Shown here: positions 1,340 through 29,932 of the stretch, in pieces
Layout: the number at the start of each line of letters is the position of its first letter
Position numbering within the stretch: position 1 is the first letter of the stretch
Source: a virus
Reading direction: 5' to 3' (one strand)
DNA: 31,855 nt
IMG/VR virus record: IMGVR_UViG_3300025121_000111
Location: 1-31,855 of that record
The notes under the pieces: generated by a model
What the model saw: the letters and a program-made list of their open reading frames with translations, nothing else
Told to the model about the DNA's origin: nothing
Databases searched by the model: none
Program-made: the position numbers and the translations under genes

Positions 1340-4165
1340 TTAATCTTGGGGTGGGGTGGGTGTTTTGGTTGGGGTACGGGTGCGAGCCGGGACGAGGGTA
1401 GGGGTAATAGACTTTGTAAGGGTTTGGGTTGGGGAGAACAGGGAGACTGGTGTTTTGGTAAATGGGGTGATAAATGTTGGTGTGATGGTTCTTGTTTTGG
1501 TTACGGAACCGGTAGGGGTAATTGTTCCGGTGCGGGTTACCGTGCCGGTATGGGTGGTGGTTCTAGTGGCAGTTTTGGTCATGGTAAAGGTTCGTGTTCC
1601 CGTCAGGGTTCTGGTTGGTGAACAGGTATTGGTTCTGGTTGTTGTTTGTGTGGGTGTTTTGGTCCCCGTGTTAGTGATGGTTCCTGTATTGGTCTCGGTG
1701 TAGGATGCAGTTTTTGTCTCCGTTTCGGTGTAGGTGTGTGTGGTGGTAAATGTCATTGTTTCTGTTTGGGTATAGGTTTGGGTATAGGTTTGGGTATGCG
1801 TTTCTGTTGGTGTTTGGGTGCGTGTTTTAGTGAACGTGGCGGTTCTGGTGGGAGTTTCCGTCTGGGTGTGGGTTGGGGAACATCCAGAATGGGCAACCGC
1901 CTCAAAATCGTCCACATATTCATCCGTCCCAAGATAAAACCCAACAAATGTTCTATCATTGCTGAACGAGTCAACTATGTTTATTTTCTGTTCTCCGTTA
2001 TATGAAACAACAATGCTATCCCCGTTATAGTCCACTCGTAAAATTGAATTGGGAACATAATCTATATCGGCATACCAATCTATCATGGAGTTTGAGTTAG
2101 CCAATCTGATGAGTGGGCTGACCGAACCCTGCACCTGAACGAACCATCCGTTAGATAGCGTGGAATCGCCACGGAACCAAAGGGTGCCGTTATCGGTGAA
2201 TCGCATAGATACATACCCATTAGGGTCGCTACTCTCCATTAATCCCGGCCCGTCATACGCCATCCCAGATTTAATGCTTGCTATATTCCCGACATAGCTG
2301 TAACCCCACCATTGCCCGGTGTCTGCCACCCCAAGGGTAGGACTATCTGCCCTATTGAAGCTATCGGTAATTATCTCACCACAGGATACCGGAGTAAAGG
2401 TCTGCGTAATGGTTGAGGTATGCGTCTGTGTCTGTGTCGGTGTTTGAGTTGGACTATTTGTTTCTGTCCGGGTGAATGTCCTAGTTCCGGAATAGGTGGC
2501 CGTCTGAGTTTCAGTGCTGGTATATGACGGTGTTTCTGTGTTGGTATATGTCGGCGTCTCGGTTGATGTGTGCGTTTCAGTTTCGGTCCCCGTGTAGGTA
2601 TGGGTTTTGGTTGATGTGTTGGTAGGAGAATATGTCGCCGTTTCAGTTTCCGTATAAGTTGGCGTTTCGGTTCCGGTATAAGTGGGGGTTTCCGTAGATG
2701 TCCCAGTCGGAGAATATGTTTCCGTCCTTGTCCCTGTGTAGGTTGGAGTTTCCGTTCCTGTGTAGGTAGGTGTTTCTGTTCCGGTATATGACGGAGTATT
2801 TGTTTCTGTATAAGTCGGTGTAAATGTTTGGGTTCCCGTATAGGTCGCTGTTTGTGTGGGCGTATAGGTCGGGGTCTGCGTGGATGTGTCCGTCACGCTT
2901 CCCGTGACCGTTGGTGTAGCGGTAGAAGAAGCCACGCAAAAATTAATATCATCAATGTATGCGTCAAATGCCCCTTGATTGCCATCGAAAAATAAGCCGA
3001 CCGCATTAATGGCTTGATGAGATAAAATATTATCGTTGCATAAATAACTGCAAACGAAATTAGACAGGGGTAAATAAACCAACTGCCAGCTTCCCGTTCC
3101 AGTTGACCATGCGGGACTTAAATATAATTCCCCATCCCCTCCGTTCATTGTTGCTTCTCTGATACGCACCTTGAAATTTTTACCTAGAGGAGCGGTAACA
3201 TACATGGATACATAATCCCCAGCGACTATATTCCAGTAATGAGCGGATAACGCATCGCCGGGATTCGCTTCTTGACTGGTGTGAGAATATGCCTCTGACC
3301 ACTCAGTCCCTGTATTCAAAATCATCCAACCGCCATAGTCACCGCTATGGCTTGCCGTTGTCGTCACATACTTCATGGAGCCACCAATCCCAAATCCAAC
3401 AGACCAATGTTGCATACCTCCCCCGGCTGGTTCAAAATTCTCGTAGGAAGAACACCCCGGCGTTGATGTCATGGTCTGTGTTGCCGTCTGTGTTCGTGTT
3501 GGTGTTTGAGTTGGAGTTTGTGTGTGGGTTTTCGTCATGGTCTGCGTTGCCGTAACAGTAAATGTCGGGCTATCATCCGTGGTTACTGCAAAATTATCCC
3601 ATCCCCGGACGGCGCTTTCCGTGGCGATACCGACATAATTCCCAGAGTAAAGACTACCGGAATCCGTGCACTCACCGATAAAAGATTCATTTACATAGGC
3701 TTTAAAATTAAATCCATTAACGATAACTTTTATCCTATCACCCGCCATTGCGTTCCAGTTATATGTCCCCAGTGTTGTATTTTCAGGCCGGATAACGATG
3801 TAAATTTTATTATTTCCATTTGATAACGCTTCATACCGATTAGTAGACCCTGCTTTATTTCTCCAGCTTAAACAAATGCTTGCTCCCACGGATGACCAAT
3901 CACACGCCACCGTATACGAGGAAATTGACACATCCACATACGCCACATTATGACCGTTGGGAGCGCTAGCGAGATAGGCCGTAGCGTTTCCCTCAATTCC
4001 CCAAGTCCCGTCTATCGCCACCCACGGAGGGCCGAGAGTAGTCGCGCTACTGGCCCGGTTAAAATCATCGGAGAATATCGTCCCAGAGGCGAGGTATCTT
4101 GGGATAAGAAATATCAGGATGAGAAAGAAAAGTTTTAAGTATTTCACTTTCCGTATATTTCCCAA
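1340..4165 (-). CDS. Secreted multidomain protein with Thr-x linkers and LamG-like/CBM-like domains (941 aa)
   Basis: The N-terminus is basic then hydrophobic (KYLKLFFLILIFLIPRYLA), a probable signal peptide. Three globular beta-rich domains follow, separated by long linkers in which every second residue is Thr. The first (about 28-200) begins FSDDFNRA and resembles concanavalin/LamG folds. The second (about 240-415) ends FDAYIDDINFCV, like jelly-roll carbohydrate-binding modules. The third (about 600-765) begins DSFNRADSPTLG and looks like a second copy of the first type. The last ~175 residues are pure Thr-x linker. The start overlaps the upstream gene by 22 bases, so the two are probably one transcript. 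A surface or glycan-binding role is inferred; the Thr tracts are plausible O-glycosylation sites. It could be a virion appendage or a protein displayed by the infected host; I cannot tell which. Confidence 0.85.
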   Translation of the reverse strand: MGNIRKVKYLKLFFLILIFLIPRYLASGTIFSDDFNRASSATTLGPPWVAIDGTWGIEGNATAYLASAPNGHNVAYVDVSISSYTVACDWSSVGASICLSWRNKAGSTNRYEALSNGNNKIYIVIRPENTTLGTYNWNAMAGDRIKVIVNGFNFKAYVNESFIGECTDSGSLYSGNYVGIATESAVRGWDNFAVTTDDSPTFTVTATQTMTKTHTQTPTQTPTRTQTATQTMTSTPGCSSYENFEPAGGGMQHWSVGFGIGGSMKYVTTTASHSGDYGGWMILNTGTEWSEAYSHTSQEANPGDALSAHYWNIVAGDYVSMYVTAPLGKNFKVRIREATMNGGDGELYLSPAWSTGTGSWQLVYLPLSNFVCSYLCNDNILSHQAINAVGLFFDGNQGAFDAYIDDINFCVASSTATPTVTGSVTDTSTQTPTYTPTQTATYTGTQTFTPTYTETNTPSYTGTETPTYTGTETPTYTGTRTETYSPTGTSTETPTYTGTETPTYTETETATYSPTNTSTKTHTYTGTETETHTSTETPTYTNTETPSYTSTETQTATYSGTRTFTRTETNSPTQTPTQTQTHTSTITQTFTPVSCGEIITDSFNRADSPTLGVADTGQWWGYSYVGNIASIKSGMAYDGPGLMESSDPNGYVSMRFTDNGTLWFRGDSTLSNGWFVQVQGSVSPLIRLANSNSMIDWYADIDYVPNSILRVDYNGDSIVVSYNGEQKINIVDSFSNDRTFVGFYLGTDEYVDDFEAVAHSGCSPTHTQTETPTRTATFTKTRTQTPTETHTQTYTQTYTQTETMTFTTTHTYTETETKTASYTETNTGTITNTGTKTPTQTTTRTNTCSPTRTLTGTRTFTMTKTATRTTTHTGTVTRTGTITPTGSVTKTRTITPTFITPFTKTPVSLFSPTQTLTKSITPTLVPARTRTPTKTPTPPQD

Positions 4166-4720: not shown

Positions 4721-4795
4721 TGCGGGATAGCCAAGAGGTCTAAGGCACCTGGTTCATACCCAGACGAATCAGGGGTTCGAATCCCCTTCCCGCTA
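4721..4795 (+). tRNA. tRNA with anticodon CAT (Met or Ile2 type)
   Basis: Cloverleaf: acceptor TGCGGGA/TCCCGCT (4721-4727 with 4788-4794, six pairs plus a T-T mismatch at 1-72), D-arm GCC/GGC with GG in the loop, anticodon loop TTCATAC (CAT at 4755-4757) on a stem with one C-A mismatch at the base, and a T-arm AGGGG-TTCGAAT-CCCCT. CCA is not encoded. The body (TAGCCAAG, AAGGCACC, TTCGAAT) resembles bacterial tRNA-Gln, including a weak first pair, but the anticodon is CAT. It lacks the GGG/CCC anticodon stem of initiators. It decodes AUG, or AUA if C34 is modified to lysidine. It precedes the terminase genes by 16 bases. Confidence 0.85.
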
Positions 4796-4811
4796 CAACT
4801 TAAGGAGATAT

Positions 4812-5394: not shown

Positions 5395-6973
5395 TATTGA
5401 AATCGCCAAAGAAGAACTGACCGCAGAAATATTCCGCAGGAAATACGCCAACGACCCGTTTGGGTTTGCAAGAGATGTTTTGGATTACACATCGTTCAAA
5501 GATTATCCGCACGGAGAATTATTTAAGTTTCTATCTCAATCCATCTTTAAACCCAAAAATGGGAAAATGGTATTAATGCCGAGAGGTTCGTTTAAGACTA
5601 TTTGCGTGCACGCCCTGCTTGTCCATAAAATTCTTTATAATCCCAATATTCGTATCCTTTATTTTGGTTCAACTTGGGGTAAGAGTGTTCTTTCGGTTTC
5701 CACAGTCAAGGCTCACTTAGAAAAGAACCCGCTTATACAGAGATTCTTTGGATTTCAAGGGAAGAAAAACGGGGCGAATAAATGGACGGATGACGCCTTT
5801 GTTGTAGCTGGTAGAACTAAGTATTCTTTCAAGGAAGCCACGATGTCAGCGTCCGGGGTGGAAACATCCACGACCGGATTGCATTATGACCTTATTGTGT
5901 TTGATGATATCCATGACCCCGAGAATACAAAGAATTTTGAACAGATAGAAAATGTTAGAAATCATTTCATGCAAGGAAAGTTTTTATTGGATTCATCCGG
6001 TGAGATGTGGGTTATTGGGACGAGATGGAACCTGTTCGACCTGTATGGGTGGATAATTAAAAACATGAAGGACTTTTTTTCATTTTATGTAAAAACTTGC
6101 TATGATGGTCCCGGAAGCCCGACCGACCCGGATAGACTGGATGACCCACAGTTCACACCCAACGAGTCAACATTGCTTCTCCCCGAGGTTTTGGATTTTC
6201 AAACATTGCGTTCTTATAAGGTCATGCAACCGGAAGATTTTTCCGGTCACATGATGAATAGGGCTATCTCACCGGAGATGAACCCATTCAAACAGGAAGA
6301 TATGCGGACATGGGAAAGGGAGGGAGAACTTCCGGTTATTACGGATAAATTCCTGACCATAGACTTAGCGTCATCGTCCAAGAAGTCCTCTGACTATACG
6401 GCACTTATTGTGGGTGGGTGGTGCACAAGAAATAAACTGTGGGTTCTAGATGCTGTTCGTGAGCACATGGACGAGAAACTTATAGCAGATACAATCTTTG
6501 AATTATGCCAGAAACACGGGCTTGATACCTATGGAGCAGAAAGCGGAGCACTCCTGAATTATTTAGAGCCGTTCATGCAGAATGAAATGGCTAACCGGGG
6601 GGTATATCTTATTTCTCAACCTCTCAAGGGATGGCACGGGACCAGCAAGGAAGAAAGAATACGAAGACTAATCCCATTCTGGAAAAACCATGCTATAATT
6701 TTAAGGAAAGACATGGATGAGCTGCAATATCAATTACTCATCGGTGGAGAGCATGACGACTTAAAGGATGCGTTAGCTTATCAAATTGAAATGCACATGC
6801 CAACATCCATAACGGAGGAAGAGATAAGGTCAAGGGATGCGGAAACGGCGGAAGAGATGGAGTCCGCCAGACAGAAAAAAAGCAATGAGATTATGATGTC
6901 CCAGATAGAGTCTGATTTAGCAATGAGCAGGGGGGGTGATTTCCCTGTATCTGGTAATGGGGAGGACTGGTGA
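5381..6973 (+). CDS. Terminase large subunit (530 aa)
   Basis: ATP-driven DNA packaging motor and nuclease. ATPase: Walker A-like MPRGSFKT at residues 66-73, Walker B LIVFDD at 171-176, and a coupling-type motif VIGTRW further on. RNase H-like nuclease: acidic residues in FLTIDLASS (about 325), YGAESGALL (about 380) and HDDLKDALAY (near 460), the usual D/E/D trio. Length is typical. GTG start at 5381, overlapping the preceding gene by 14 bases with only a weak SD. The C-terminal ~60 residues are charged and helical, as often seen where TerL meets the portal. The stop overlaps the next start (TGATG). Confidence 0.95.
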   Translation: MKHSDIEIAKEELTAEIFRRKYANDPFGFARDVLDYTSFKDYPHGELFKFLSQSIFKPKNGKMVLMPRGSFKTICVHALLVHKILYNPNIRILYFGSTWGKSVLSVSTVKAHLEKNPLIQRFFGFQGKKNGANKWTDDAFVVAGRTKYSFKEATMSASGVETSTTGLHYDLIVFDDIHDPENTKNFEQIENVRNHFMQGKFLLDSSGEMWVIGTRWNLFDLYGWIIKNMKDFFSFYVKTCYDGPGSPTDPDRLDDPQFTPNESTLLLPEVLDFQTLRSYKVMQPEDFSGHMMNRAISPEMNPFKQEDMRTWEREGELPVITDKFLTIDLASSSKKSSDYTALIVGGWCTRNKLWVLDAVREHMDEKLIADTIFELCQKHGLDTYGAESGALLNYLEPFMQNEMANRGVYLISQPLKGWHGTSKEERIRRLIPFWKNHAIILRKDMDELQYQLLIGGEHDDLKDALAYQIEMHMPTSITEEEIRSRDAETAEEMESARQKKSNEIMMSQIESDLAMSRGGDFPVSGNGEDW

Positions 6974-7263
6974 TGCTTCAACCTTTGCACCACAATGTTC
7001 TGGCAAGGATAGTGAAGGAACAGGAAACTTTTAAGAGTGGGTTGTTTATTCCCGAGACGGTGGATACGAACGCAAAGACAGAACTCTCTGAAGTCATAGC
7101 GGTTGGAAGTGAAGTGAGAGAGGTTGCTGTCGGGAATATGATTGTTATCCAGAGGCACGATGGAATATCGACAAATAAAGACGCTACGGAGCTGGTGATA
7201 CATGAGTCGCAAATCCTTGCTATTGTTGAAGGCGTGTCTATTAAGAATGAGAAGGGAAATTAA
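6973..7263 (+). CDS. GroES/Cpn10-like co-chaperonin (96 aa)
   Basis: Size and pattern match the ten-kilodalton co-chaperonin: LQPLHHNVLARIV at the start, SGLFIPE, then SEVIAVGSEV, VAVGNMIVIQ, and a C-terminal ESQILAIVE equivalent to the conserved end of GroES. The mobile loop region is FKSGLFIPE. ATG at 6973, with GGGGAGG seven bases upstream, overlaps the TerL stop. By analogy with T4 gp31, it may replace host GroES so that a bulky capsid protein can fold in GroEL; this is inference. Its place between terminase and portal supports a role in head assembly. Confidence 0.85.
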   Translation: MLQPLHHNVLARIVKEQETFKSGLFIPETVDTNAKTELSEVIAVGSEVREVAVGNMIVIQRHDGISTNKDATELVIHESQILAIVEGVSIKNEKGN

Positions 7264-22052: not shown

Positions 22053-22364
22053 ATGGATATATTTATAGATGATTCTACGGCACCGGGAGAGGTCAATAAA
22101 AACGGGATAAAATGGTTCATTGACAGAATTAGGAAAGAGGGTCACAGAGCGATACTGTATTCCACAAAGAAAGATGACCCAGAAGCAATGAAGAATATCA
22201 TGGCAGAACTAAAAACGAACGGATTGCACTTTGACGGTGTATGGAAAACAGCAAAACCAGAAGGAATTATTATAGATAAATCATGTATCCGTTTTAAATC
22301 AAAGTTTCAGCAAGTCTATGATATAATGAAAAATATGAATAAAGAAAAGGAGACCTCCAAATGA
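22053..22364 (+). CDS. HAD-like protein with degenerate active site (103 aa)
   Basis: The order of motifs is that of a small HAD phosphatase: hydrophobic strand with MDIFIDDST, GIKWFIDRIRKEGHRAILYST (strand ending in S/T, motif II), then KPEGIIIDKS for motifs III/IV. However, the first motif reads D-D-S-T and does not have the DxDxT spacing, and only one acidic residue is kept in the last motif, so activity is doubtful. Strong SD (AGGGGG). The stop overlaps the next gene (ATGA). It might instead bind nucleotides or act structurally. Confidence 0.5.
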   Translation: MDIFIDDSTAPGEVNKNGIKWFIDRIRKEGHRAILYSTKKDDPEAMKNIMAELKTNGLHFDGVWKTAKPEGIIIDKSCIRFKSKFQQVYDIMKNMNKEKETSK

Positions 22365-23881
22365 AAAAGCTATTTATTGCTCTTTTGCTGTGTTCGCTTC
22401 CCGTTTTCGTGTTTTCCGATACGGATACGGAAACGCCAACCGAGACCCCTAGCGGAACACCCACCGAAACACTGACACTGACGGAAACCATGACATCAAC
22501 GGAAACGCTGACGTTAACAGAAACTATGACGTCAACGGAAACAAAAACAATGACCACTACGAAAACATCGTCCCAGACATTTACAGCAACCCCTACCTGC
22601 GTTGGGGATAGTCGCCTTAGAATCAATACCTACGCCGACACATATATTGATAATGAAGCGCCCACATCGAACTTCGCCAATTCTTCCACTGTTAGGGTTA
22701 CTGGGTGGAACGGCGGAGGCGGGCACGATCAAAGCGGTTTCTTAAAGTTTAGTCTTAGTTCTATCCCAGACGGAGCAGAAATACTCAATGCCTCTTTGCG
22801 GGTTTATGTGACTGATAGCACTGGCACTGTTCCCCTTAGTATCTTTCGCCTAACGACCACCGGAATGACCTTCACTGGAAGCACATACAACAAAAAAGAT
22901 GGAACACTTAATTGGGCTAGTGGCGTGTTTAGTGACGATGATTATTCAGTTACGATGGCTGGTGATTTAACGGTCACTGCGTCCTCTTCCTTTTATCACG
23001 CTACCATCCTTCCCGGTAGCATAATTAAAGACGGTAGCGGTAATATAGTATTTATTTTAAGGGATATGACGGAAAACAATGAAGAGTCTTGCCGGATATA
23101 TGCGACCAATAGCGGGGACTCCGATTATTATGCCCAATTAGAGGTTTGCTACAATCTCCCGACATCCACACCAACCACAACCAACACAGGGACAAAGACC
23201 CCGACATACACTGGGACGGAGACTCCGACACAAACAGCTACATATTCTCCGACCAATACATCCACTGAGACTCCCACTCGTACAAGAACAAAGACAAACA
23301 CAGAGACTCCCACGGGGACATCAACGAAAACACAAACAGTTACGCAAACCGGGACAAGAACAAAAACAGAAACTGCCACAAATACATCCACTAGAACATT
23401 CACCTACACATGGACACACACTTATACATACACTTTTACTCCCACGGGTGGAACAGACCCAGTTCTGGACCAGAGACTTATCCGTGTTGTGAATCCGCTG
23501 GGTAATGTGGTTAATGTTCAGGCAGACGTTGCTGGAGATATCTATGTTATGAACAGGGTAGACCCATCTTACTCGATTCAAATGTTCAATATTGCCGCAG
23601 TTGCTCTCACGACAACTGGGAATACGGTCATTTCTCCCACGTCCGGCAAAATTATAGATGTTAAGGGTTGGGCTTGGTATGCGAGCGGAAATGCTACCGT
23701 TAGTTATGTAGACGGGACAATTACCGCCGGGCTTCTTGGATACACGGTGTATTCGCCTGTAAATAAAGATGCGTTCCCTACTGGTGGAACGGTGTTTTCA
23801 ACTACAAGTGGCTCGGGATTATATCTTTCTACGACCGCTGACGTGAATGTTAGCGGTTGGGTATACTATAAATTGCGGTAA
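22361..23881 (+). CDS. Secreted Thr-rich protein with DNRLRE-like domain (506 aa)
   Basis: Signal peptide MKKLFIALLLCSLPVFVFSD, then a Thr-x linker to about residue 70, then a beta-sandwich of DNRLRE/CBM type (INTYADTYIDNEAPTSNF; GFLKFSLSSIPDGAEILNAS; SLRVYVTDSTGTVPLSIFR). A second Thr-x linker runs to about 360, followed by a C-terminal domain that I do not recognise (LDQRLIRVVNPLGNVVNVQ ... YSPVNKDAFPTGGTVFS). DNRLRE domains bind glycans in known families. The ATG overlaps the HAD-like gene. Like the protein at 1340-4165, it combines a signal peptide with glycan-binding-like domains; a receptor-binding or surface role is inferred. Confidence 0.75.
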   Translation: MKKLFIALLLCSLPVFVFSDTDTETPTETPSGTPTETLTLTETMTSTETLTLTETMTSTETKTMTTTKTSSQTFTATPTCVGDSRLRINTYADTYIDNEAPTSNFANSSTVRVTGWNGGGGHDQSGFLKFSLSSIPDGAEILNASLRVYVTDSTGTVPLSIFRLTTTGMTFTGSTYNKKDGTLNWASGVFSDDDYSVTMAGDLTVTASSSFYHATILPGSIIKDGSGNIVFILRDMTENNEESCRIYATNSGDSDYYAQLEVCYNLPTSTPTTTNTGTKTPTYTGTETPTQTATYSPTNTSTETPTRTRTKTNTETPTGTSTKTQTVTQTGTRTKTETATNTSTRTFTYTWTHTYTYTFTPTGGTDPVLDQRLIRVVNPLGNVVNVQADVAGDIYVMNRVDPSYSIQMFNIAAVALTTTGNTVISPTSGKIIDVKGWAWYASGNATVSYVDGTITAGLLGYTVYSPVNKDAFPTGGTVFSTTSGSGLYLSTTADVNVSGWVYYKLR

Positions 23882-28103: not shown

Positions 28104-29297
28104 TTAGGCTTTAATGACCGCTAGGGGTTTTAGTTTAACCAATATCTTCACCAAGTCCTTTTGGTTTTCCATTACAGCGTCTATGTCTTTATATGCCCCT
28201 GGAGCCTCATCCAAATCTTGCTGGTTACGAACTGAATGAACTATTCCCATGTCGTCCATCCGCTTTTTTTCTTCTTCAAGATTCAATGTTTTTATCGCTT
28301 GCCCCCTTCCCATTTTTCTACCCGCTCCGTGAGAGCAAGACCTGACGCTCTCTTCGTTTCCCAAACCCTCAACGATATAGCTGGAAGTTCCTTGGCTGCC
28401 AGGTATGATACCCAACTGCCCAGACCGAGCTGACGTTGCCCCCTTGCGGTGTATCCAAAGGTTCTTCCCCCTATAACTTTCAATCGTGGCGTAATTGTGG
28501 TGGATATTTATCGTTTGCAGTCTTTGAACATTAAAAGATGAACGAAGAATATTTTCTACCCGGTCCATCATTAAATCCCTGTTCCTTTGAGCAAAATCCA
28601 GACAAAAATTCATTTCTCCGATATACGCCTTTCCTTGGAGGGTTTCACCGGGTAAAAAGGCCAAATCCCATTCCTTTTTTATCTCAGTAAACCATTCTTG
28701 ATTAAATTCTTTTGCCATTTTATTATAGGCGTCACAAACTTGCTTTCCGACATTTCTTGACCCGCTATGGATCATAATCCAGATATTTCCGTCATCCCCT
28801 TTTTGTATCTCAATGAAATGGTTTCCCCCGCCAAGCGTACCCAACTGATAAGCCGCTCTTGAGAGCTGGGAAAAAACAATAGGGTATGTTTCGCTATCTA
28901 TCCCTGGGTATCCAAAAAGAAGCGGAGCAATTTCTTGGCGTTCCTTGTGATGCTCAAATCCTAGTGGTATTTGCTGGCGTATTTCCCCCATAATTATCTT
29001 CAATTCCTCTTGAGTTAGATGTTCTAGGGATGTCTTTACCGCCACCATCCCGCATCCTATATCGACCCCAACGGCATTTGGGATAATGACACCATCTGTC
29101 GCTAAAACCCCACCGATAGGCATACCGTATCCCATATGGCAATCCGGCATTAAACCAACAAACTTTGCAAATGGAAGCATTGACAAATTCTTAGCCTGGG
29201 ATAGGCAGGACGGCTCGATATCCTCTGGCTTGTCTAACCAAACCTTGATAGGAACTTTCTGTTCTGGATTTATTTCCCTGTCATATAAAACAAACAT
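28104..29297 (-). CDS. rtcB: RtcB RNA ligase (397 aa)
   Basis: Joins RNA ends bearing 2',3'-cyclic phosphate (or 3'-phosphate) to 5'-OH, using GTP and Mn. All family motifs are present and intact: PDCHMGYG (51-58), GVDIGCGM (77-84, metal ligands D79 and C82), GTLGGGNHFIE (153-163, H160), HSGSR (177-181), HHNY with H267 as a further ligand, HRKGAT, GSQGTSSY, and CSHGAGR with H323 as the likely guanylylated histidine. No archease gene is in the window. AAGGGGGG precedes the ATG. Upstream is a 387-base gap that holds the structured RNA; downstream are tiny phage genes. RtcB in phages is usually linked to repair of cleaved tRNA. Confidence 0.95.
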   Translation of the reverse strand: MFVLYDREINPEQKVPIKVWLDKPEDIEPSCLSQAKNLSMLPFAKFVGLMPDCHMGYGMPIGGVLATDGVIIPNAVGVDIGCGMVAVKTSLEHLTQEELKIIMGEIRQQIPLGFEHHKERQEIAPLLFGYPGIDSETYPIVFSQLSRAAYQLGTLGGGNHFIEIQKGDDGNIWIMIHSGSRNVGKQVCDAYNKMAKEFNQEWFTEIKKEWDLAFLPGETLQGKAYIGEMNFCLDFAQRNRDLMMDRVENILRSSFNVQRLQTINIHHNYATIESYRGKNLWIHRKGATSARSGQLGIIPGSQGTSSYIVEGLGNEESVRSCSHGAGRKMGRGQAIKTLNLEEEKKRMDDMGIVHSVRNQQDLDEAPGAYKDIDAVMENQKDLVKILVKLKPLAVIKA

Positions 29298-29319
29298 ATT
29301 CCCCCCTTTATCTATTTTG

Positions 29320-29664
29320 CAATCTCTAGGCCGGTTTCAGCCCGGCTACACTTAAGGTGGGCGCGCTGGTGATGTCGCCCCGTTTTACGGTCTGCCGACT
29401 GCCTAACCATACTCATCTCAGCAGTTACACCCGCACCGTATCGCTACACCGGGCATACCCCCTTAAGTTCGATTCGCGTGTCAGCTCCACGCCGCTAGAG
29501 ATTGGACTTCTCCATTTTATTTTTAAAAACTGTTTTAGGTGTAGGCGTGCAACAACGCCTCGTTTTTAAGACCACCAAACGCCACACTAAGCCGGGTCAA
29601 AGCGTTGGTCCCTCCGATGTCCGGCGTGAGGATTGCTTGCGGCTCTCACCGCCCTGCTTGGAGG
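29320..29664 (-). ncRNA. Large structured RNA or rtcB leader, unknown class
   Basis: No gene fits the 386 bases between the zinc-protein stop (29684) and rtcB, yet inverted complementarity runs almost throughout. Domain near rtcB (29320-29504): a 10-bp closing helix (29320-29329 with 29495-29504) encloses GCCGG/CCGGC (29330-29346), an 8-bp long-range helix (29350-29357 with 29461-29468) and GCGTG/CACGC (29476-29492). Inside the long helix are GGGCG/CGCCC, CCGT/ACGG, ACTGC/GCAGT and CCCG/CGGG. Second domain (29523-29664): 8-bp helix 29523-29530 with 29562-29569 around AGGCGT/ACGCCT (29543-29560), AACGC/GCGTT (29578-29606), CCTCC/GGAGG (29611-29664) around GTGAG/CTCAC (29626-29649). Strand is taken from neighbours. 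The rtcB ribosome site remains free. Confidence 0.6.
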
Positions 29665-29683
29665 TCTCACCCAAAACCATTCT

Positions 29684-29932
29684 TTACTGTAAACGATAAG
29701 TCTCTTTAACCGTATATCCGAACCTTGTATGATTACCCTTCCCATTAAGACACTTCTGACACCATCTTTCAACCCACGATATAACTCCTTTATTAAAAAA
29801 GACAAAGTTACCGTGAATAGCACAAACCGGCTTACCACACCGGCAACAGGAGTTTGCTTTGTAAAAATGCCCGCAAGGAGTAACCCTCCAAGGATGTAAT
29901 TTAAAACAATTATCGTCATTTATCTTTTTCAT
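29684..29932 (-). CDS. Small zinc-finger protein (82 aa)
   Basis: The frame opens at 29983, but the ATG at 29932 has AGAGGAAAC upstream and begins MKKINDDNCFKLHPW. Cys/His pairs: CGHFYK, CCRCGKPVC, AIHGN and CQKC, enough for two zinc ions in a treble-clef or double-ribbon arrangement. The start lies inside the upstream gene (17-base overlap). The structured RNA begins directly downstream. No family identified. Confidence 0.7.
   Translation of the reverse strand: MKKINDDNCFKLHPWRVTPCGHFYKANSCCRCGKPVCAIHGNFVFFNKGVISWVERWCQKCLNGKGNHTRFGYTVKETYRLQ

Follow-up and report, generated by a model that had tools for sequence, protein, structure and literature searches.

A widespread and apparently undescribed phage RNA family whose three-way-junction hub sits within a tRNA-like shell in most members

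The stretch of DNA analysed here, in the following called the window, comprises 31,855 nucleotides of the IMG/VR record IMGVR_UViG_3300025121_000111. It is a single viral contig with phage genes, among them those for a P22-like portal protein and a glycosyl hydrolase 108 lysozyme. The gene for the RNA ligase RtcB (PF01139, E 2.7e-110) is encoded on the minus strand and the gap before it therefore extends upwards from position 29298. The nearest plausible gene upstream has 99 codons, is cysteine-rich by inspection and ends at 29684; thus the gap measures about 386 nt. An SD-like GGGGGG is found ahead of rtcB at 29299-29309. The sole tRNA gene detected in the window codes for tRNA-Met (4721-4796, plus strand, anticodon cat). 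Elsewhere in the window we note large threonine-rich proteins with TETPTYT-type repeats (1340-4165, minus strand, and 22361-23881, plus strand) and a protein built from NGKREGKREEWYENGSPYVVEN repeats, which look MORN-like by eye; its gene runs off the contig (31410-31853, minus strand).

A preliminary description of this DNA had pointed out that the stretch in front of rtcB is gene-free and densely self-complementary, and had proposed either a new large noncoding RNA of phages or an unusually large leader controlling rtcB. The open reading frames over the stretch are indeed short and overlap on both strands, and no conserved protein frame is seen. In single-sequence folding against shuffles the minus strand of the whole stretch beats the shuffled sequences (z -3.2); the plus strand is weaker (z -2.1). 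The structure is real, but the gap does not form one unit. Instead it holds two RNAs, element 1 at 29320-29504 and element 2 at 29532-29677. When folded separately, 29320-29505 reaches a z of -4.0 with none of 200 shuffles as good, whereas 29533-29680 is weaker at -2.4. The preliminary description could not match the stretch to known RNAs, and likewise Rfam 15 gave nothing over the gap at the gathering threshold; at E<=10 only a chance match to DicF appeared, and none of the known ribozyme families in Rfam matches in the window stretch. The features, all on the minus strand and from element 1 onwards given with its parts in 5′ to 3′ direction, are the following.

28104-29297, minus strand: rtcB, RNA ligase gene
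29320-29504, minus strand: element 1 (type A), a structured RNA of 185 nt with a tRNA-like shell and a pseudoknotted three-way-junction hub (covariance model, folding, covariation)
29495-29504, minus strand: 5′ strand of the closing acceptor-like stem, CAATCTCTAG (7/7 acceptor pairing in relatives)
29476-29492, minus strand: D-arm-like hairpin H1, GCGTG..CACGC (0 of 2000 permutations)
29470-29475, minus strand: conserved linker with AATC, between the D-arm-like hairpin and H2
29461-29468, minus strand: 5′ strand of H2, ACTTAAGG, in place of an anticodon stem (covariation)
29451-29458, minus strand: strand S, the 5′ strand of H3, GTATGCCC; pairs with S'2, alternatively with S'1
29447-29450, minus strand: pseudoknot partner GGTG, pairs with CACC of the H5 loop (96.5% paired, nearly invariant in type A)
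29427-29435, minus strand: S'1, TGCGGGTGT, alternative partner of S (inspection and RNAalifold; invariant)
29399-29424, minus strand: hairpin H4 with the conserved 16-nt loop GAGATGAGTATGGTTA (99.2% paired, double changes in 5/6 pairs)
29390-29396, minus strand: S'2, the 3′ strand of H3, GGCAGAC (H3: 0 of 2000 permutations)
29359-29387, minus strand: hub strand TAAAACG and hairpin H5, GGGCG..CGCCC
29350-29357, minus strand: 3′ strand of H2, CCTTAAGT (covariation)
29330-29346, minus strand: T-arm-like hairpin, GCCGG GCTGAAA CCGGC
29320-29329, minus strand: 3′ strand of the closing acceptor-like stem, CTAGAGATTG
29532-29677, minus strand: element 2, upstream of element 1 and in tandem with it; likely a minimal member that lacks the tRNA-like shell

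Both long-range helices noticed earlier proved to be real parts of element 1. The helix of 10 bp closes the element as its acceptor-like stem (CAATCTCTAG/CTAGAGATTG), and the helix of 8 bp (ACTTAAGG/CCTTAAGT) corresponds to H2; in relatives the two consist of different yet complementary sequences in place of those of the window. In many modules strand S has two possible partners, S'1 and S'2. In type A the S/S'2 pairing is supported statistically and the S/S'1 pairing by inspection only. The start codon of rtcB lies 22 nt past the end of the closing stem.

A sensitive BLAST search against 50,697 phage records returned one convincing relative, in the Klebsiella N4-like phage PP889499 (74.5% over 94 nt, E 1e-6). 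Two other matches, both short and located within annotated genes, were discounted. With patterns derived from the positions conserved in PP889499 we retrieved 10 and then 28 contigs from IMG/VR, and all 28 carry the same RNA when compared side by side. The 13 contigs found with a pattern of the 3′ half were each already among the 28. Each of the helices H1-H4 beat 2000 of 2000 partner-swap permutations in an alignment of 23 sequences. The window was excluded from the covariation statistics, which rest on 22 sequences. In these, 90.4% of the pairs in the named structure are standard ones, and 17 pairs and 97 cells are changed on both sides. The 97 compensatory changes compare with 29 in shuffles (0/500 as high) and with no more than 27 when the pairing partners are shifted along the alignment; the covariation score is 0.383 versus 0.124. 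Covariation is clearest for H2, where seven of the eight pairs show double changes.

Model R1, a covariance model of the 22 relatives with the window held out, matches element 1 over 29349-29474 with 113.4 bits and an E-value of 2.6e-31, covariance-model E-values being rough. Across 376 kb of sequence, drawn from random viral loci and K-12 prophages, the model has no match at E<=1, and no type-A-like match is found in the DLP12 and Qin prophage regions of K-12. Four viral matches of a CNN...NNG pattern (L015-L018) all match the model. The idea of a new large noncoding RNA of phages is thus borne out by covariation, by the held-out model match, by more than 100 relatives and by the lack of an Rfam family. 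What would have spoken against it, namely relatives lacking compensatory changes, folding no better than shuffled sequence or a conserved protein frame, was not found.

Common to all members is a three-way-junction hub of the form GA..UAAAACGAGGCGU-loop-ACGCCUA. The elements of the hub follow each other in the order H2, GA, H3 with a variable module, UAAAACGAG, H5 (GGCGU/ACGCC) and UA into H2, and the hub is probably locked by a loop pseudoknot between the H5 loop and the exchangeable module. The signature AAAACGAGGCGT-(6 to 12 nt)-ACGCCTA occurs in at least 120 contigs of the viral scan; as the scans looked for exact patterns, the counts are minimum values, and the invariance of the searched positions (16-nt loop, hub string) is partly built in by the patterns. 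None of 395 Bacteroidota genomes contains the hub signature and chance matches are therefore rare. A perfect 8-bp H2 followed by GA is present in 30 of the 77 non-type-A members listed, against 0.8 with swapped flanks. This strict search was used instead of a wide search for H2 which is too permissive (109 versus about 85 with swapped flanks).

The probable loop pseudoknot is supported by matches of four bases: within the module a 4-nt complement of the H5 loop is found in 63 of the 78 members listed versus 40.7 (maximum 53) after shuffling. Complements of 5 nt are not above chance in the members listed. In type C, loop and partner change together (CTGG/CCAG, CGGG/CCCG, CCGG/CCGG and ATCAG/CTGAT). 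They match in 10 of the 12 type C members listed, with 1/500 shuffles as high; one exception is a Listeria phage (L065).

The outer part of the RNA resembles a tRNA. All seven pairs of the acceptor stem form in 53 of the 82 listed members with the AATC motif, compared with a mean of 9.0 (maximum 19) when flanks are swapped, and the distance from acceptor to AATC is tRNA-like with 19-23 nt in most listed members. Given this acceptor stem and the D-arm-like and T-arm hairpins, the shell corresponds to a tRNA minus the anticodon arm. An anticodon arm with a 7-nt loop is not present, and H2 and the three-way junction stand in its stead. Among the 53 clear cases in the members listed, a discriminator A is found in 29 and CCA is encoded in only four, so that aminoacylation is not indicated. 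By inspection the T-loop of one group is near canonical, and its D-arm reads GGCGGAATAGGTAGACGC, which we take to resemble leucine tRNA. We also note a locus of the Enterococcus phage phiFL2A (L152:2470-2530) with a tRNA-like shell (GTCACTG/CAGTGAC stem, T-arm) from which the hub has apparently been lost.

The modules are highly diverse. Type A carries the hairpin with the conserved 16-nt loop, and there are several others. In L143 and L111 the module is by inspection tRNA-like or apparently a true tRNA. Six members (L045, L086, L089, L105, L138 and L142) show, again by inspection, a permuted order of the strands, and their complementary H3 measures 8 nt. Several permuted members have a tRNA-like gene directly upstream.

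Element 2 carries the exact hub signature at 29542-29569. Its H2 comprises 10 bp with one G-U pair (29668-29677 with 29532-29541) and its H3 is AGACC/GGTCT. Model R1 scores it with 18 bits (E 0.0027), which is marginal taken alone. Judged by the exact signature, the 10-bp H2 and the H3, element 2 is likely a minimal family member. As element 2 and other minimal members have no shell, the function cannot reside in the shell alone.

Relatives are found in phages of E. coli, Klebsiella and Listeria; plasmids gave no matches. A subtype of the RNA is located between the antiterminator Q and the holin, both in the P22-like E. coli phages CUS-3 and Huey and on a chromosome of E. coli. Among 5,426 complete genomes of this species, 116 (about 2%) contain at least 80% of that subtype, whereas the search in E. 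coli with the other subtypes tried gave no match. The proteins encoded next to the RNA repeatedly include Q-like antiterminators and transcriptional activators. Transfer RNA genes lie within 1 kb of 36 of the 117 members listed, and of none of the randomly chosen positions in random viral loci; some of these tRNA genes are probably inside the element itself. In Listeria phage B025 (L150:2750-3330) a member is flanked by matches to rliG and rli62, both below the cut-offs, and to mcrA, above it.

The gene rtcB is present in 5 of 29 type-A records, in 3 of 50 other members listed and in 1 of 50 random viral contigs. The type-A frequency differs from the random one with p about 0.02, and two of the loci concerned, L029 and L031, are near relatives. 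Six loci have rtcB within about 0.5 kb of the RNA (the window, L005, L029, L031, L080 and L071), and this distance is more telling than the presence counts. In L071 the RNA is positioned downstream of rtcB.

From these observations a widespread phage RNA family with a hub that most members enclose in a tRNA-like shell is well supported, and two of its members lie in the window. The family is apparently undescribed. It is absent from Rfam 15, and a literature search by motif string and topic found no description in open papers and very few preprints.

As to the function, we suggest, with a probability of about one half, that the family is a tRNA mimic of phages, which is processed like a tRNA, acts in trans and keeps company with genes for tRNA supply and tRNA repair. 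On this reading, the minus strand of 29320-29504 would encode an independent phage RNA that outwardly is built like a tRNA, with an acceptor stem of 7 bp or more, and in which the anticodon arm is swapped for H2, leading into the conserved three-way junction H2/H3/H5. Host tRNA-processing enzymes, that is, RNase P and the 3′-end enzymes, might recognize the shell. Their cuts could release the RNA from a longer transcript and at the same time free the rtcB message. The mature RNA would then act in trans as a tRNA mimic which engages host factors that deal with tRNAs or ribosomes. Together with extra tRNAs and the co-encoded RtcB it could belong to a phage set that sustains translation when host nucleases cut tRNAs.

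The proposal of the preliminary description that the stretch is a large leader of rtcB is not supported. Such a cis-acting 5′ leader could sense tRNA fragments or RtcB and alter access to the ribosome-binding site, and the geometry in the window is suited to it: 22 nt separate the closing stem from the start codon, and the ribosome-binding site follows about 10 nt downstream of the stem. Moreover, in L005, L029 and L031 the RNA is directly followed by rtcB, and in L080 the gene comes within 0.5 kb. Yet 24 of the 29 type-A records and 47 of the 50 other members listed have no rtcB, the RNA comes after rtcB in L071, and the downstream genes are diverse or on the opposite strand. Since most members lack rtcB and the position upstream of it is not constant, we regard a leader as quite unlikely. 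The same scarcity of rtcB weighs against an RNA which cleaves itself or is cut by an enzyme and whose ends RtcB joins into a circle, the shell and the segments S, S'1 and S'2 serving this processing. Adjacency to rtcB in six loci is commoner than expected, in six members the strands are permuted and H3 is complementary over 8 nt, and inspection reveals two segments able to pair with the same strand S, all of which would suit a circle. However, no known ribozyme fold matches, and the permutation also fits a hub that tolerates different end positions; the chances of this reading are poor. A broader version is likewise rather unlikely. In it the family would be a new modular class of phage RNA, with a tRNA-shaped shell around a conserved pseudoknotted hub that carries exchangeable modules, whole tRNAs among them, and RtcB would join or repair the ends of the RNA so that it could exist as a circle. 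If true, it would account for the rtcB neighbours as well as the permuted members.

By analogy to GOLLD and ROOL the family might also act as a self-assembling scaffold or cage that holds tRNAs or other cargo. It shares with them the phage location in tRNA clusters and the conserved core with an exchangeable module, which in some members is a tRNA (PMC12286853). But the RNA is far smaller and has no sequence or model match to either, and we think this rather improbable. Finally, the tRNA-like shell, the loss of CCA and the hub-less shell in phiFL2A could be taken as signs of a degenerate tRNA array, or of tRNA genes with inserted sequence, without a function of its own. Against this stand the compensatory changes across diverse phages and the near-invariant hub positions, which can only be explained by selection on the RNA; thus a degenerate origin is largely refuted and very improbable.

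A conserved RNA with a tRNA-like shell but no anticodon, distributed over phages of Gram-negative and Gram-positive bacteria and absent from Rfam 15, would constitute a new RNA class, which is directly testable in laboratory phages. The link to tRNA clusters and RtcB would offer a concrete way into the question of how translation is protected or exploited by phages. It also appears that whole RNA families in the intergenic space of phages escape current annotation.

Among the known systems, YrlA comes to mind at this locus. This bacterial Y RNA (RF02553) is a tRNA-like RNA linked with rtcB, in the operon rsr-yrlBA-rtcBA (PMC7790460). RF02553 is above the cut-off in none of 29 records and not in the window; two weak matches outside the window, one of which falls on a tRNA, score 23.4 and 22.1 bits against a cut-off of 69. 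TROVE (Ro60/Rsr) is not one of the 25 Pfam families recorded for 109 proteins of the flanks. The prophage RNA STnc100 (RF02076) was rejected as well, as 0 of 8 records with family members match.

With tmRNA (SsrA, including the permuted form RF04321) the family shares an anticodon-less tRNA-like domain from which a long helix leads into a pseudoknotted body. It differs in its D-stem-like hairpin and in that CCA is usually not encoded. ARAGORN made no tmRNA call over 145 loci with elements, only nine elements being called as intron-bearing tRNA, and the tmRNA models of Rfam have no match in the window stretch. In type A no tag-encoding frame was seen by eye; the invariant GTGTAG stops one frame and the H4 stem bases vary. 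Beside the type-A RNA of N4-like phages, Klebsiella phage PP889499 among them, there is a tmRNA-like coding piece (L001:3680-3900 and L007 about 6790-7000) with the tag-like frames ANDDVVLMAA* and ANDNVVLMAA*. The piece in L001 matches permuted tmRNA below threshold (33.3 versus 47 bits), and no acceptor piece was identified beside the two.

GOLLD and ROOL differ from the family in structure and are much larger, and identity with them was discarded as no Rfam model matches. The habits are alike: GOLLD and ROOL are phage-encoded and located near tRNA islands, GOLLD consists of a conserved part and a variable part which at times holds tRNAs (PMC12286853), and the present family is also phage-encoded, keeps the company of tRNAs and combines a conserved core with an exchangeable module. 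As to tRNA itself (RF00005), neither ARAGORN nor Rfam detects element 1 of the window as a tRNA, and the family is distinguished from it by the missing anticodon arm; what it shares with tRNA is the 7-bp acceptor stem and the positions and spacing of the D- and T-arms.
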